From a virus: a DNA stretch of 31,979 bases. The DNA lies in the IMG/VR virus record IMGVR_UViG_3300031834_000898, positions 1 to 31,979 of that record; one strand, 5' to 3'. This document shows, piece after piece, positions 8,660 through 31,979 of the stretch. Numbering within the stretch: the first letter of the stretch is position 1; the number at the start of each line of letters is the position of its first letter. The notes under the pieces were generated by a model, which was not told where the DNA came from, did no database searches, and saw nothing but the letters and a program-made list of their open reading frames with translations. A program made the position numbers and the translations under genes.

Positions 8660-8937
8660 CGAAGATAGAGCGAGGGTACACGGGGGCCGATGGATACGCC
8701 AGATGGCTGGCGGATAGCACCGCAGGAGCAGAGATGACAACCGAACTGATGGCCGCACGAGTAGAGATCGAAAATCTGCGCGCCGAGGTGGAGCGCCTGC
8801 GCGGGGCGCTGCAAGATGGAGTAGACGACCTCGCAAGTTACGCGGATAAGAAGGGGGCCGTGAAGTTCGCCATCGAGGACGTGGTGTTCTACATGCGTAC
8901 CGCCCTCGCGGGCAAGGGGCCCCATGACCCCGCGTAG
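8656..8937 (+). CDS. Short coiled-coil protein, 93 aa
   Basis: ATG 8656 is in an ATGA overlap; the frame is open upstream but would overlap the previous gene. The middle is a clear coiled coil (MAARVEIENLRAEVERLRGALQ). The C-terminus (TALAGKGPHDPA) is nearly the same as that of the PAPS-reductase-like gene (LALAGKEVPHDPA), because both gene ends lie in the same repeated DNA. It probably oligomerises. No family recognised. Confidence 0.7.
   Translation: MTKIERGYTGADGYARWLADSTAGAEMTTELMAARVEIENLRAEVERLRGALQDGVDDLASYADKKGAVKFAIEDVVFYMRTALAGKGPHDPA
8901..8937 (+). repeat. Gene-junction repeat, copy 2
   Basis: The 17-bp core (8901-8917) is followed by CCCCATGACCCCGCGTAG (8920-8937). That block encodes the PHDPA end and stop of one gene and, in another frame, the MTPR start of the next. 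Confidence 0.9.
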
Positions 8938-9679
8938 AACAATTGCTTGGTTCTCTGCGGGGGTCTCGTCTGCTGTGGCGACAAAGCTGTTAGTAGACGC
9001 CATAGACCAAATCATCTACACGCACATAGATGACCAGCACCCGGATACAATGAGGTTCGTACAGGACTGTGAGAAGTGGTTTGGGAAACGGATCACGGTG
9101 CTACAGAGCCCTTACAAATGCGTTGAGACCGCTTGCCGGATGTCTGGCGGCAGGGGGTACATCAATGGAGCAGGAGGTGCGGCTTGTTCTCTGAGACTGA
9201 AGCGGCGTATACGAATGGAGTGGGAGATGGAGCAGAGAGAACCACTGCGCTATGTATGGGGGATGGACGTAGCAGAGCAGAACCGATGCGACAGGATAAG
9301 GGAAGCCATGGCATCTATGGAGCACGTGTTTCCGTTAGTGGATAAGAGGATGACAAAAGAAGACGCACACAGGGTGCTGCACGCAAGCGGGATCAAGCGG
9401 CCAGCCATGTATGATCTTGGGTACAACAACAACAATTGCGTAGGATGCGTAAAGGGAGGGATGGGGTACTGGAACCACATACGGGTCGATTTCCCAGCTG
9501 TGTTTACGGCACGAGCAACGATGGAAAGGGAGATCGTGGCGACCTGCATTAAGGGCGTATACCTGGACGAACTCGATCCAAAACGAGGTGCAAACAGACG
9601 CCCTATCGTAGAAGACTGTGGTATGTTTTGTGGCATACTCGCCCTCGCGGGCAAGGAGGTTCCCCATGACCCCGCGTAG
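8924..9679 (+). CDS. PAPS reductase-like / adenine nucleotide alpha hydrolase family protein
   Basis: ATG 8924 overlaps the previous gene by 14 nt. The 251-residue protein opens with IAWFSAGVSSAVATKLL, in the position of the PP-loop (SGGxDS) of ATP-pyrophosphatases, with Ala and Ser substitutions as seen in phage PAPS-reductase-like proteins. It then has IYTHIDDQHPDT, a helix with CVETAC, and a C-terminal NNNCVGCVKGGMGYWNHI block in which two cysteines and Gly/Trp/Asn are characteristic of this phage family. Phage members are often linked to DNA or nucleotide modification, but a sulfate role is unproven. It ends in the repeated LALAGK...PHDPA. Confidence 0.75.
   Translation: MTPRRTIAWFSAGVSSAVATKLLVDAIDQIIYTHIDDQHPDTMRFVQDCEKWFGKRITVLQSPYKCVETACRMSGGRGYINGAGGAACSLRLKRRIRMEWEMEQREPLRYVWGMDVAEQNRCDRIREAMASMEHVFPLVDKRMTKEDAHRVLHASGIKRPAMYDLGYNNNNCVGCVKGGMGYWNHIRVDFPAVFTARATMEREIVATCIKGVYLDELDPKRGANRRPIVEDCGMFCGILALAGKEVPHDPA
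9640..9679 (+). repeat. Gene-junction repeat, copy 3
   Basis: The core (9640-9656) is followed by AGGTT and the same 18-bp stop/start block (9662-9679) as copy 2. The next gene again begins MTPR. Confidence 0.9.
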
Positions 9680-11488: not shown

Positions 11489-11637
11489 TTGAATGTCAGA
11501 AGACAATCGACATCAAGGCTAATCGGGATGTCTGTGCCATTCTCTACGAGAAGACGGCGCAGCCGAAGTACCTAAAGGCTGCTATACTGGCTGACGCGCA
11601 GTTGTGGACACGCAAGCAGACGGAGCACTTCAATTGA
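11485..11637 (+). CDS. Hypothetical protein, 50 aa
   Basis: A short gene between the winged-helix-like gene and the kinase, linked by ATGA upstream (ATG 11485) and TTGA downstream (its TGA overlaps the kinase TTG). AGGAAGAGCA lies upstream. The product is helical and mixed in charge (TIDIKANRDVCAILYEKTAQ, KAAILADAQLWTRKQ). Coupling at both ends makes it likely to be translated. Confidence 0.65.
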   Translation: MIECQKTIDIKANRDVCAILYEKTAQPKYLKAAILADAQLWTRKQTEHFN

Positions 11638-12563
11638 GAGATATAGTTATAAACCTATACGAATACCTTCAGACGGTTAACCTCGGGGCCAAGGGGATTG
11701 CTGACGCATGGACCTCGGCGCAGTGCGTGTCGGTGAACGTTCTTGGCGACCCTATTATTGACGCCTACACCTACGTTGAGCCCCTTGGCATGAGCAAGGG
11801 CTATCCAGTAATCAATTGGCAGATCACGGACGAGGTGAACTACCTCGGCGGTGCGGCTAAGGTGGCCCTCGACTGCGCCCACCAGTGCTCGCGGGTTACG
11901 CTGGGGGCTCCTACCCCTGCCGTAGACGCGGCACGGTGCATCCCCAGTGAGATGTTGTTTCACGACAGCACCTGCCTCTGCGACCCGTGGGTTACCAAGC
12001 GACGGATATGCATCGACAAGCAGGTGCTGTTCAGGACTACCGAGGGTAGGGCGATCAGTTACCCCCACCCAGCGACAATGCCATCGGCTACCGTAACCAT
12101 CCTCTCTCTCTTCCAGGGGGAGTTTAACATCCCCAAGGCTGAGGTCCGTCGTCTTGCGGGAGATGGGCTGCTGGTGGTAGATTGTCAGAACCCGGAGACG
12201 ATCAAACTGTACCGCAACATCGACGCGGTGCTGTTCGCCACCGAGAAGGAGTTGCGTGACAGTGGTGTCGCTCGGTCTTCATTCAAAGAGGTGTTCCTTA
12301 AGAATGGCCCCAACGGATCAATGGTTGACGCTAACTTCCTGCCTGCATTCAATAGAGACCCAGTTGATACCATCGGATCTGGCGATGCCTACCTTGCTGC
12401 TGCCGCTATTATGCTCGGATACTCTCGTGGCATGTACCATACGGCAGCTATCATCGGCAGCATCGCGGCGGCCATACAGTGTACGAAATTCGGTAATGGC
12501 ACGGTAACCAGGGACGAAATAGATGAGGTACTAAATGGGGTCATTGAGTTACAGCGAACGTAA
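11634..12563 (+). CDS. PfkB-family sugar kinase, RfaE/HldE kinase-domain-like
   Basis: A 309-residue ribokinase-fold enzyme. Starts at TTG 11634, with CGGAG 8 nt upstream and a TTGA overlap; a GTG at 11604 is an alternative. The N-terminal VLGDPIIDAYTYVE (37-49), PVINWQI, then GGAAKVALD (72-80) matches the HldE/RfaE heptose-7-phosphate kinase opening, and DTIGSGDAY (245-253) is the PfkB signature with catalytic Asp251. Ser replaces the usual Ala in GAGD. The nucleotidyltransferase half of bacterial HldE is absent. It would phosphorylate a sugar, perhaps a heptose for LPS or a nucleotide-sugar. Exact substrate unknown. Confidence 0.8.
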   Translation: MRDIVINLYEYLQTVNLGAKGIADAWTSAQCVSVNVLGDPIIDAYTYVEPLGMSKGYPVINWQITDEVNYLGGAAKVALDCAHQCSRVTLGAPTPAVDAARCIPSEMLFHDSTCLCDPWVTKRRICIDKQVLFRTTEGRAISYPHPATMPSATVTILSLFQGEFNIPKAEVRRLAGDGLLVVDCQNPETIKLYRNIDAVLFATEKELRDSGVARSSFKEVFLKNGPNGSMVDANFLPAFNRDPVDTIGSGDAYLAAAAIMLGYSRGMYHTAAIIGSIAAAIQCTKFGNGTVTRDEIDEVLNGVIELQRT

Positions 12564-12819
12564 GGAATGGGAAGAGTCTTGCGATTACTACAACAAGCCC
12601 ATGGACTTCTGCGTATGGTACGACATCGGTCGCATGAGGACGGTGCGCTACTACCCAGAGACAACCGAATGCAGCGTGTTCGAGTTTAAGGCTGGCAAAT
12701 GGGGGCCGACAAAGCCATTGCCAGTTCTGGTACCTGAGCCAGAGTTCGTCAGGAATATGGCAATGAAGGAGCTACAGAAACATGATCAAGTCAGTGAGTC
12801 TTCGAGCAATCCAGTTTAA
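12535..12819 (+). CDS. Hypothetical protein, 94 aa
   Basis: ATG 12535 has GATGAGG about 7 nt upstream and overlaps the kinase end by 29 nt. Product: an acidic N-terminus, an aromatic beta-rich middle (CVWYDIGRMRTVRYYPETTEC) and a C-terminal helix. No recognisable motif. The position between the kinase and the ATPase may reflect a small accessory factor. Overlaps the ATPase gene by 38 nt. Confidence 0.65.
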   Translation: MGSLSYSERKEWEESCDYYNKPMDFCVWYDIGRMRTVRYYPETTECSVFEFKAGKWGPTKPLPVLVPEPEFVRNMAMKELQKHDQVSESSSNPV

Positions 12820-13690
12820 CAATGGGGTCTTCGTTCTGATCTACGGCAAGAGTGGATCGGGGAAGACCTCGTGCATACGCAACTTCCCGCGTGACAAGAC
12901 GGTGATCATCTCGTCTGAGCCGCAGGGGCTGACGAGCTTGGTGAACTTCGGGTGGGTTGACGCCAAGGTGCTGTGCCCCACCACCAGCGACGGGTTTAGC
13001 TTGGCTATGGAAGAGGCGATAGCAGACCCCTCGATCAAGCACATAGTCCTCGATAGCCTCTCTCAGTACAGCGAGATGCTGACCAAGGAATATATTGAGA
13101 AGAGCGGGAAGAGCGTGCAGAGCATTGGGTTGGATCTCTATCGCGTGGTCAACCTTCAGTTCCAGAAGATGGTTCGTCGGCTTCTCGATGCGCTACCCAT
13201 GGGCAAGGATGTCATCGGCCTTATCCATATGAATCTGCGAGAGGAGTCGGTAGGTGAAGAGCGCCGGATATCGAGAGAGATAGCGTTGAGCGGGCAGCTA
13301 CCAGCGTGGGTGTGCAGGTTAGCGTCTCTGGTAGCCCGGACAGAGAAAGTAAAAGCGGGCAAAGAGTATCGCTACATGATGATCGCCGACGGTAGCGATG
13401 GCAACGACGGCAAGGATCTCTTCGGTGTAGCGCCTGCGCCTATAGACAATGATCTGTGGGCAGCAATGGTCAAGATCAGGGCGAAGCAGCCAGTCGAAGA
13501 GGCGAAGGATGAAGAGGCTGGGATTAGCAGCTACGCTGACCTGCTGCGCCTTGGGATCAAGCACAAGGTATCTAAGACAGACGTTGACGCGCTGCTAAGC
13601 GGCCTTGAGGTGGACGCACGTAGTACGTCACCAGATAAATGGGCAGCGGTGTTCGCTGCCTTCAAAAGTAAGTACGTGGCGGAATTCTAA
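12782..13690 (+). CDS. RecA-fold AAA_24 ATPase, Sak4-like recombinase candidate
   Basis: A 302-residue P-loop ATPase. Walker A is GKSGSGKT (22-29), Walker B HIVLD (87-91), followed by DSLSQYSEM, which is typical of the AAA_24 phage family. The Sak4 subgroup in this family anneals or pairs single-stranded DNA together with a partner ssDNA-binding protein. The next gene looks like such a partner. ATG 12782 lies 38 nt inside the previous gene with AAGGAG upstream. The C-terminal 60 residues are Ala/Glu-rich and helical. Role: phage recombination or replication. Confidence 0.8.
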   Translation: MIKSVSLRAIQFNNGVFVLIYGKSGSGKTSCIRNFPRDKTVIISSEPQGLTSLVNFGWVDAKVLCPTTSDGFSLAMEEAIADPSIKHIVLDSLSQYSEMLTKEYIEKSGKSVQSIGLDLYRVVNLQFQKMVRRLLDALPMGKDVIGLIHMNLREESVGEERRISREIALSGQLPAWVCRLASLVARTEKVKAGKEYRYMMIADGSDGNDGKDLFGVAPAPIDNDLWAAMVKIRAKQPVEEAKDEEAGISSYADLLRLGIKHKVSKTDVDALLSGLEVDARSTSPDKWAAVFAAFKSKYVAEF

Positions 13691-29388: not shown

Positions 29389-30417
29389 TTAGCAGGCCGC
29401 CAAGCACGCGCCACCCTGAAGCACACCGTTACGACGGCAGTTGCTGCAGGTCTGCTGGATGTCCACAAGGATCGCACCGACGTACGCATCCTGCCACTTC
29501 TCATACTCGGGCGTGATGATCTTGAAGTTAGCGTCACTACCGAGATGGAGCTTCTGGTACTTAGAGTTGAGTAAGAAGATAGACCCAGAACCATCAACGT
29601 TGGTCCCGGTAATCGACTTGTCCTGCATGATCGTCATGCCCTGATAAGTCATATTGTCGAAACCAAACTCTGCGGCACGCTGATTGACGTAGCGGATGCT
29701 CGTCGCCAGCTTGCTTTCGAGATGCCAGTAGCTGAGAGTATCTGCTAGGGCAAGATCAGGATGGTCACTCCCGTCGCTACAATTCGCGTAAGCGGCACGA
29801 ATTCCATCAGCAATACCAGTGCTACCCGCAGTAGTCGCAATGCTCGACCACTGATTCCTCCACCAGGTGTACGTCGTGCGGCTAATGCCACCGATGATAA
29901 GCGTCTGGCTTGCCACCGTTGCCGTATCAACAACCTGATACATCGAGTAGATCAGCTTGTTGTTTACCGTACGCGAAGTGGTGAAGAGATCCGTATTGAT
30001 GCACCGCGTCAGGCTCAGCTCAGCCTGCTGCTTCAACGCATCAATAAGATTGACCACTGCGCTATCGCCCTTGTTGGCCGCAGCAGTCGTGCGCGCGTAC
30101 ATGATCGGAACCCTGTAGTGCGCCATCTTCCACACGGTCGTTGCGATACCCTGCGGAGGCGTCGCATCCATAACCTCGTATGCGTCGTAGGCCTTCGCAT
30201 TCGGGTTCTCGTCATACATGATGGGAATTTCGATAGACTCTCCACCATCGTAAACACTGGAACGGCCCTTGTCCTTCATCCACCATAAGTACGGGGTCGC
30301 CTGAAAGAAGTTATCAACAATGCTCGGCTGGACCTTCGGCAAAGTCGTTGCAATCAGCGCATTGATATTCGCCGGGATACTACCAGCCGCAACTACAGCG
30401 GAACTAAAACGAGGCAT
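29389..30417 (-). CDS. Major capsid protein (HK97-fold type)
   Basis: A 342-residue protein with NFFQATPYLWWMKDKGRSSVYDGG, ESIEIPIMYDENPNAKAYD and VWKMAHYRVPIMY, a pattern I know from podoviral major capsid proteins; the scaffold gene is upstream and the decoration genes are downstream. MCP of this group commonly ends near CSN.R..GVL, present here as TCSNCRRNGVL, but this protein adds a C-terminal QGGACLAAC. ATG 30417 has AAGGAG upstream. Assembles the icosahedral head. Confidence 0.85.
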   Translation of the reverse strand: MPRFSSAVVAAGSIPANINALIATTLPKVQPSIVDNFFQATPYLWWMKDKGRSSVYDGGESIEIPIMYDENPNAKAYDAYEVMDATPPQGIATTVWKMAHYRVPIMYARTTAAANKGDSAVVNLIDALKQQAELSLTRCINTDLFTTSRTVNNKLIYSMYQVVDTATVASQTLIIGGISRTTYTWWRNQWSSIATTAGSTGIADGIRAAYANCSDGSDHPDLALADTLSYWHLESKLATSIRYVNQRAAEFGFDNMTYQGMTIMQDKSITGTNVDGSGSIFLLNSKYQKLHLGSDANFKIITPEYEKWQDAYVGAILVDIQQTCSNCRRNGVLQGGACLAAC

Positions 30418-30428
30418 GATTTATCTCC

Positions 30429-31247
30429 TTAAATGCCAAGCTCGCGTTTAGCGTCTCTAAAAGCCCTCAACACAGAATCACGTCCTGAATATGTCTCAGA
30501 CTTGCCATTCTGCGATGACCCCATTGTGGGAGATACAGTCTTGCCCGCCTTCGCCTTAAGCTCCTCCATTACAGACGACCGAGTCTTCTCTTTGACAAGC
30601 CCCGGTACGTCCTCGAAGGTAGCCAAACGATAGGCGTCCTCAACTGACTTCGCCCTTCCAGTCGCTACCACCTGCGCCATGGTGTCCAGCCTCTCGTAAG
30701 GGTCTGGCCAGCCGTTATCCCCAGCCTTCTTGGCCAGGTCGGCAAGCTCGTTCTTCGCACGCGAGTTCGCCTGCTCCTGCCCAATAGACGAAAGCTGAGA
30801 ACTCAATGGGCCAAGCTTGCTTTCGATAGCCTTCTGTACCATGGCTTCAATGGCCTTGGCAGCCTCTGAGTCGAGGTGGTCTGAAAGCACGGGCGTCTTC
30901 TCAGGTTCCACTGCTGGAACGCTCTGACCAGACTGTACCTGCTTCCATGCCGCCTTCACCCAGGGCTCCTCAACTAGTTGGTCCAGCAATTCAGCCTTGC
31001 GCGAAAGCTCTGCCATCTGGCCCTTGAGCTTCGCTGCCTCTTGCTGCCCCTTGGTCATCCCCCCATGGAACTTCTTCACTCCGGCAAGCACCGCCTCGCG
31101 TTGCTCTTCGGGAATAGTTTCCCACGGAATCATCGAGTACGGCTTGTACTCTTCTGGCAACCCCTCTGGCTCAGACAGTCCAGTTGCATCCTCGGGCGTA
31201 GCAACGCTCTCCGCGGAAGTATCCTGGGTCATAAGCGCTTCAGACAT
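30429..31247 (-). CDS. Scaffolding protein-like
   Basis: A 272-residue acidic/helical protein just before the major capsid gene. After an acidic disordered N-terminus it has a helical run (KGQQEAAKLKGQMAELSRKAELLDQLVEEP, in parts) and a second one (ESKLGPLSSQLSSIGQEQANSRAKNELADLAKKAG), and ends in a basic helix (SVLRAFRDAKRELG). That is the usual layout of phage scaffolds, whose C-terminal basic helix binds the capsid protein. ATG 31247 follows AAAGG. A sigma70-like promoter lies directly upstream. Confidence 0.75.
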   Translation of the reverse strand: MSEALMTQDTSAESVATPEDATGLSEPEGLPEEYKPYSMIPWETIPEEQREAVLAGVKKFHGGMTKGQQEAAKLKGQMAELSRKAELLDQLVEEPWVKAAWKQVQSGQSVPAVEPEKTPVLSDHLDSEAAKAIEAMVQKAIESKLGPLSSQLSSIGQEQANSRAKNELADLAKKAGDNGWPDPYERLDTMAQVVATGRAKSVEDAYRLATFEDVPGLVKEKTRSSVMEELKAKAGKTVSPTMGSSQNGKSETYSGRDSVLRAFRDAKRELGI

Positions 31248-31265: not shown

Positions 31266-31293
31266 ATTATAGGATAAAAAACTACAGGTGCAA
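31266..31293 (-). promoter_or_regulatory. Candidate sigma70-like promoter of the scaffold/capsid genes
   Basis: On the minus strand, TTGCAC (31293-31288), a 16-nt spacer (31287-31272) and TATAAT (31271-31266). The -10 is perfect. The predicted start near 31259 is inside the AAGAAAGG ribosome site, so the leader would be very short. A chance match is possible. Confidence 0.45.
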
Positions 31294-31341
31294 TGCGATC
31301 ATTACGCACAGCATAAACTCTATCCTGTCGTACTGCGTCAT
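31282..31341 (-). CDS. Micro-ORF, 19 aa, hydrophobic
   Basis: ATG 31341 overlaps the stop of the repeat protein (ATGA). The 19-residue product (QYDRIEFMLCVMIALHL after MT) resembles the end of the protein just upstream (QLDRIEQLLYVLMAVKS). It is a hydrophobic segment, likely in the membrane. Its stop lies within the spacer of the candidate promoter. Small, so may not be expressed. Confidence 0.35.
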   Translation of the reverse strand: MTQYDRIEFMLCVMIALHL

Positions 31342-31979
31342 GACTTCACCGCCATGAGTACGTAAAGCAACTGCTCTATCCTGTCGAGCTGAGTGCCCGC
31401 CGTCCCATTGACACTACCAGTTGTCCTTGGCGCATTAACCACTGACGTTCCCACGCAGTGGTGAGCAATGCGGGAAGACGCAATGGTCCTCGGTGCAGCG
31501 ACAACGCTCGTGCCACTACAAGGGGCCAACCCAGGGGAACTAACCGTGGCAGAGCCAGTAGTTATAGGGGCCTTGGCTACAGAAGTTGCCGTACACCGCT
31601 TGTTGCGGCGTACGTTACCACTGGTTATAGGGGCCTTGACTGTAGAAGTGGCCGTGCAGCGCCTGACAAGACGGCACAGAGCTATAGTGGCTGGCGCCTT
31701 GACTATGCTCGTCGCTATGGCGGTAACGGTCCCAGCAACTGCAGCAGGGGTAATCGTACCAGAGGCTGTTGTTATAGGGGCATTAACCTTAGAGGTAGAC
31801 GAGGCTCTTTTGGCTTTGCGACCAACACCAGAAGACAACGGGGCTTTAACTACACTAGTGGATGTTGATCGCTTTGTCTTTCTTCCAACACCAGCAGTTG
31901 TTGGGGCTTTAACTACACTGGTCGCCGTAGTAAGTTTAGTCTTGCGTGCAACACCAGCAGTTGTTGGGGCTTTAACTAC
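31338..31979 (-). CDS. Tandem-repeat protein (21-aa units), 5' end beyond window
   Basis: An open frame enters from the right edge and ends at 31338. Nine units of about 21 residues with the pattern TS(V/T)VKAP(T/I)T.G..RK.KR.. are readable; two are longer (28 and 25 residues). The last unit leads into a hydrophobic tail QLDRIEQLLYVLMAVKS. The protein is Thr/Ser/Ala/Lys-rich and very basic. An apparent start at 31838 is internal to the array and is not real. It lies upstream of the scaffold, where the portal region would normally be. Possible roles: a fibrous or nucleic-acid-binding head protein. Unrecognised. Confidence 0.75.
   Translation of the reverse strand, partial: VVKAPTTAGVARKTKLTTATSVVKAPTTAGVGRKTKRSTSTSVVKAPLSSGVGRKAKRASSTSKVNAPITTASGTITPAAVAGTVTAIATSIVKAPATIALCRLVRRCTATSTVKAPITSGNVRRNKRCTATSVAKAPITTGSATVSSPGLAPCSGTSVVAAPRTIASSRIAHHCVGTSVVNAPRTTGSVNGTAGTQLDRIEQLLYVLMAVKS
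31407..31979. repeat. Coding tandem repeat array, mostly 63-bp units
   Basis: The block corresponding to GGGGCTTTAACTAC starts at 31840, 31903 and 31966 (exact 63-bp steps). Older units are offset by 63, 63, 84, 63, 63 and 75 bp further left. The rightmost copies are nearly identical in DNA, and the left ones have diverged. All lengths are multiples of 3. Confidence 0.85.

Follow-up and report, generated by a model that had tools for sequence, protein, structure and literature searches.

Variable genes between the portal and scaffold genes of phages frequently code for minor head proteins or ejection proteins to which no function is assigned. The only phage case judged relevant in a literature search for precedents is gp44 of Staphylococcus phage 80alpha, in the available part of its description a two-domain, dimer-forming ejection protein that binds DNA non-specifically and is encoded between the portal and capsid genes (PMC7290940); its example demonstrates that ejection proteins able to bind DNA can be encoded in such a slot. 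In phages with capsid proteins related to that of the virus studied here (Mx8, Mx9, BUCT555 and others), the portal-scaffold interval usually holds short genes, several of them basic (pI 9.3-10.9), and the portal gene lies immediately, or almost immediately, upstream of the corresponding slot. Polycationic proteins with KAP motifs also include the protamine-like or histone H1-like KAP-rich proteins.

The window, i.e., the whole stretch of DNA analysed (IMG/VR record IMGVR_UViG_3300031834_000898), is a fragment of exactly 31979 bases, the right end of which cuts a repeat array. A sequence-only reading of this DNA had described an unrecognised basic protein, built from about nine 21-residue repeats and encoded upstream of the presumed scaffold gene. 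This description is supported by the present analysis: the protein falls into no Pfam, NCBIfam or PHROG family and the encoded fragment has a pI of 11.9.

Layout of the repeat array

On the minus strand, positions 31979 to 31338 form a single open frame of 213 codons with eight complete units that start with TS and one cut unit. Consecutive units are spaced by 21, 21, 28, 21, 21, 25 and 21 amino acids along the protein, and both the number of about nine units and the in-frame steps of 63, 75 and 84 bp given earlier were recovered in this frame. At a lag of 21 residues, 39% of the positions match in a comparison of the protein with itself, as opposed to a best value of 23% in 1000 shuffles (lags 1-69), and TRF detected the 63-bp array at 31840-31979. 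The copy number is at least nine units, unit 1 and the gene start being cut off by the contig end, and the TS of unit 1, which would fall beyond the record, is assumed, giving (TS)VVKAPTTAGVARKTKLTTA. That the contig ends inside the array suggests that further similar copies follow beyond it. The features of the gene are as follows:

31338..31979, minus strand: basic tandem-repeat protein CDS, incomplete (5' end missing), at least 213 aa; frame open to the contig end, period-21 self-match, core pN/pS 0.38-0.39, Ser at position 2 encoded by AGY and TCN
31923..31979, minus strand: unit 1 (cut), VVKAPTTAGVARKTKLTTA
31860..31922, minus strand: unit 2, TSVVKAPTTAGVGRKTKRSTS
31797..31859, minus strand: unit 3, TSVVKAPLSSGVGRKAKRASS
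31713..31796, minus strand: unit 4, 28 aa, with a long uncharged spacer, TSKVNAPITTASGTITPAAVAGTVTAIA
31650..31712, minus strand: unit 5, TSIVKAPATIALCRLVRRCTA
31587..31649, minus strand: unit 6, TSTVKAPITSGNVRRNKRCTA
31512..31586, minus strand: unit 7, 25 aa, TSVAKAPITTGSATVSSPGLAPCSG
31449..31511, minus strand: unit 8, TSVVAAPRTIASSRIAHHCVG
31392..31448, minus strand: unit 9, core and residual spacer, TSVVNAPRTTGSVNGTAGT
31338..31397, minus strand: stop codon preceded by a predicted amphipathic helix at the C terminus, GTQLDRIEQLLYVLMAVKS; placed at residues 198-211 by a low-confidence AF2 model
31282..31341, minus strand: overlapping 19-codon putative ORF, MTQYDRIEFMLCVMIALHL, diverged copy of the C-terminal helix that shares an ATGA with the stop of the repeat gene

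In the nine-unit listing of the frame, unit 9 reads TSVVNAPRTTGSVNGTAGTQLDRIEQLLYVLMAVKS. An amphipathic helix, TQLDRIEQLLYVLMAVKS, closes the frame, in agreement with the hydrophobic tail that had been noted after the last unit and that is helical in the AF2 model. The DNA encoding this helix recurs at a lag of 56, where 36 of 57 nucleotides are identical (binomial p about 4e-9), while the other tested offsets reach at most 21/57. Judged by this match, the 19-codon putative ORF is a diverged copy of the C-terminal helix. A TATAAT hexamer is located at window positions 31266-31271 (minus strand), about 20 bp ahead of the presumed scaffold start, and was not flagged by the promoter scan.

Position within the head gene cluster

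The following same-strand genes adjoin the array:

30429..31247, minus strand: presumed scaffold gene, 272 aa, pI 5.1; named for its place directly upstream of the capsid gene and its acidic composition
29389..30417, minus strand: major capsid protein; phrog_9953, E 7e-48, 27% identity to Myxococcus phage Mx9
28358-28858 and 28875-29369, minus strand: pair of neighbouring paralogues immediately following the capsid gene, 42% identical to each other; no PHROG match

The presumed scaffold gene, for which PHROG matches were obtained solely to families of unknown function, starts 90 bp after the repeat gene, and the order continues with the capsid gene, the two paralogues, which are probably decoration or head proteins, an SU10-like adaptor and tail genes. 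The capsid protein is 23-27% identical to those of Mx9, Mx8, BUCT555 and other phages. The sequence-only reading named no podovirus gene of this type upstream of the scaffold; the capsid relatives do have short genes in this slot, several of them basic, but none resembles the array in sequence. In Puniceispirillum phage HMO-2011, used as a second comparison, the gene between adaptor and scaffold is unrelated to the array. Searches of IMG/VR with capsid, tail, large virion and decoration proteins confirmed no phage relatives and no capsid relatives were found in GTDB; nor were a terminal overlap of the contig ends, Rfam families or tRNAs detected. Elsewhere in the window, a sugar-kinase-like (PfkB) protein that possibly acts in surface-sugar metabolism is encoded at 11604-12563 (plus strand; below the Pfam curated cut-off), and a PAPS reductase-domain protein at 8924-9679 in the early region (plus strand).

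On the grounds of composition, protein-level constraint and gene position we tentatively propose that the array may be the C-terminal portion, of 213 aa or more, of a polycationic and largely disordered late head-cluster protein that is internal or ejected, an assignment that we consider possible rather than likely. Because the gene start is missing, two other origins retain some probability. It is conceivable, albeit unlikely, that a larger virion protein, with the portal as the best candidate, ends in this array; the portal gene would be expected just past the contig end. No start codon is seen before the frame runs off the contig, and the position of the portal gene in related phages is in line with this idea; on the other hand, in seven comparison phages the portal protein ends in a Q/K-rich or acidic segment (pI 4.2-8.5) that does not carry TSxVKAP-type repeats. 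Just as unlikely in our estimation is a fast-evolving ORFan that works in the infected cell, in nucleic-acid binding or regulation, and is not part of the virion. Polycationic composition would suit many nucleic-acid-binding roles and the GC3 of the repeat gene, 0.46, is unlike that of most head genes (0.63-0.70), but the gene sits in the late head cluster close to the presumed scaffold gene and overlaps the next small ORF.

Composition and predicted structure

The conserved core of the repeat unit is TSxVKAPxT(T)G, with TSxVKAPxT as the constant element, and is followed by a spacer of variable sequence, often containing RKxKR, into which all length changes fall. From the unit consensus proposed initially, TS.VKAP.T.G..RK.KR, the TSxVKAPxT part proved invariant, whereas RKxKR is present in only about half of the units. 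Residues 1-196 contain 28 K/R (14 K, 14 R), not a single D/E and no aromatics; the repeat protein consists of 7% Lys and 28% Thr+Ser, and spacers 4, 7 and 9 carry almost no charge. In units 5-8 (window 31449-31712, minus strand), a Cys is found exactly three residues ahead of the next TS despite differing spacer length, which is not the case in units 1-4.

Single-sequence modeling with AF2 yielded a pLDDT of 41 and a pTM of 0.37, with a strand-turn-strand pattern drawn in step with the repeats, and a two-unit model built with a five-row repeat alignment yielded a pLDDT of 48 and no secondary structure; low AF2 confidence is also expected of any ORFan lacking an alignment. The strands drawn in the first model do not constitute evidence of a fold, and the array, for which AF2 gave no confident fold, appears consistent with disorder. 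These strands, together with a period that is regular save for two spacer indels, are what speaks for a beta-structured, outward-facing fibre or decoration protein with strands turning at AP/G and basic residues that attach to the host surface. We rate this reading as quite unlikely in view of the low confidence of the first model, the absence of secondary structure from the second and of any match among PDB sequences, and spacer indels of 4 and 7 aa combined with a lack of aromatics, which disfavour a regular fibre.

Coding strand and selection on the protein

Protein-level constraint is one of the grounds for the disordered head protein proposed above. Core differences are distributed over codon positions 1, 2 and 3 as 0.22, 0.29 and 0.61. 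In the old units pN/pS is 0.39 for the core as opposed to 0.79 for the spacer, while the basic spacers of units 1-3 have a pN/pS of 0.29 at near-saturated synonymous sites (few sites), from which it follows that selection on the protein maintains their basic pattern. A plus-strand frame (31468-31977) is open as well and, because its wobble positions coincide with those of the sense frame and pN/pS is the same for both, this ratio does not decide on the strand. Serine usage does: sense position 2 is Ser in 8 of 8 complete units, encoded by AGY in four and by TCN in the other four, whereas the antisense residue swaps Leu for Glu/Asp. The minus-strand frame is moreover collinear with the head genes. 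The repeat array is real, and the minus strand is its coding strand. That the plus strand is coding or that the array is an assembly artefact at the contig end is very unlikely, the mutual divergence of units 4-9 leaving at most the last units as candidates for misassembly.

Divergence among units

In the sequence-only reading, nearly identical rightmost copies and eroded leftmost ones had been taken as a gradient indicative of recent, ongoing expansion to the right. The unit comparisons do not support this picture. Units 1 and 2 share a perfect 31-bp core run and agree overall at 45 of 57 positions (79%), units 2 and 3 at 43 of 63 (68%), such that identity is limited to the 31-bp core of units 1 and 2; in the other 26 bases there are 14 matches (Fisher p 1e-5, an optimistic value since the boundary was set at the end of the run). 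In units 1-3, pS is low in the cores (0.18) and near saturation in the spacers (0.86). Among same-residue codons, synonymous differences amount to 0/10 in the core vs. 4/5 in the spacer for units 1 and 2 (p 0.004) and to 2/9 vs. 6/6 for units 2 and 3 (p 0.007), without such contrast for units 1 and 3 (p 1.0), all of these tests involving small site numbers and overlapping, non-independent unit pairs. Units 6 and 7 stand in a separate close relation, with a 15-bp exact run, and the supposedly eroded leftmost units still have cores under protein-level constraint. A simple, recent gradient of whole-unit expansion is unsupported because the spacers, which differ at most synonymous sites, carry many synonymous differences.

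In two of the three unit comparisons the cores look younger than the spacers. This would fit short-tract homogenisation or a DNA-level constraint on the core, while whole-unit duplication alone would not produce it. One could go further and imagine that the repeat gene represents a new type of modular head protein in phages, i.e., an array of binding motifs with basic spacers, in which the 31-bp cores are homogenised by short-tract recombination, the spacers keep their basic pattern while diverging synonymously and copy number can change without loss of frame; we regard this as decidedly unlikely. In a head slot, a motif array of this kind would be a testable example of in-frame repeat-gene evolution. 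A Sak4-like single-strand annealing protein (phrog_124) that could promote short-repeat recombination is encoded at window positions 12782-13690 (plus strand).

Search for relatives

No relatives of the array, and no match to a characterised repeat protein, were found in Pfam, PHROGs and NCBIfam (0 families by profile), among PDB sequences, in phage and plasmid records (tblastn) or in IMG/VR and GTDB genomes (single-protein and repeat-alignment scans, which rely on short conserved peptide or DNA words and which distant relatives could escape). As far as these databases are concerned, the repeat protein is a putative orphan fragment (ORFan).

A search of IMG/VR for DNA encoding two TSxVxAP motifs 63 bp apart retrieved mainly LTSLxGAPQ repeat proteins, in addition to antisense matches on viral contigs L020 and L029 and a match at L024. 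The antisense matches, located in DAQATDVAADTTLKGKQ repeat proteins, and the unrelated match L024 were rejected as relatives. L020 and L029 encode a strikingly regular 21-residue GSLVDAQATDVAADTTLKGKQ repeat protein. Membership of the array in the leucine-rich-repeat-like LTSLxGAPQxVxxxFxCxxN family of large viral contigs, suggested by the same 21-residue period, a TSxVxAP-like signature and an hhalign probability of 72%, is hardly credible given that these loci were picked by the TSxVxAP pattern itself, so that the resemblance is ascertained, that the family HMM gives the array 7.2 bits and the top-scoring one of 50 shuffles 5.2 bits and that the defining Leu before TS and the F-x-C-x-x-N segment are absent in all nine units.

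Proposed role and comparison with known systems

No homologue was found, and composition and position are therefore the basis on which the array is assigned a function, as part of a head protein that would be internal or ejected. A complete lack of acidic residues in residues 1-196, the location among head genes and the basic genes in the same slot of the capsid relatives point toward a head or DNA role, and its charge makes DNA binding by the repeat protein plausible; the nearly uncharged spacers 4, 7 and 9, the regular strands drawn by the single-sequence model and the missing gene start and N-terminal part count against the proposal of a disordered, DNA-binding head protein. In the mechanism we envisage, the basic spacers would bind packaged or exiting DNA non-specifically, the repeated TSxVKAPxT motif would allow multivalent binding of a partner that is itself repeated (DNA, capsid lattice or scaffold) and the protein might be anchored to the procapsid or to itself by its amphipathic C-terminal helix. 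A polycationic motif array in a head slot would offer a testable example of how a phage might neutralise or organise the DNA in its head.

Among known systems, the LTSLxGAPQ repeat proteins have the period of 21 and the TSxVxAP-like signature, which was the search pattern, in common with the array, but are built on a Leu/Phe/Cys/Asn framework absent from it, and the profile score is near that of shuffled controls. Protamine-like or histone H1-like proteins resemble it in polycationic character without acidic residues and in KAP motifs, whereas the array is low in Lys and rich in Thr and Ser and has no match in Pfam, NCBIfam or PDB. The small genes of Mx8 (p46), Mx9 (p79), BUCT555 and Bradyrhizobium phage ppBjS10J-1 occupy the same genomic slot and some of them are likewise basic; their products, however, comprise 50-137 aa, lack tandem repeats and the TSxVKAP motif and are in some cases zinc-ribbon-like. 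Finally, 80alpha gp44 is a two-domain dimer, the available part of its description mentioning no repeat array, whereas the protein studied here consists of tandem repeats; the two are alike in being encoded upstream of the capsid gene, with the portal side of the array lying outside the record, and in the suggested DNA role, a likeness by position and charge for which no homology is claimed.
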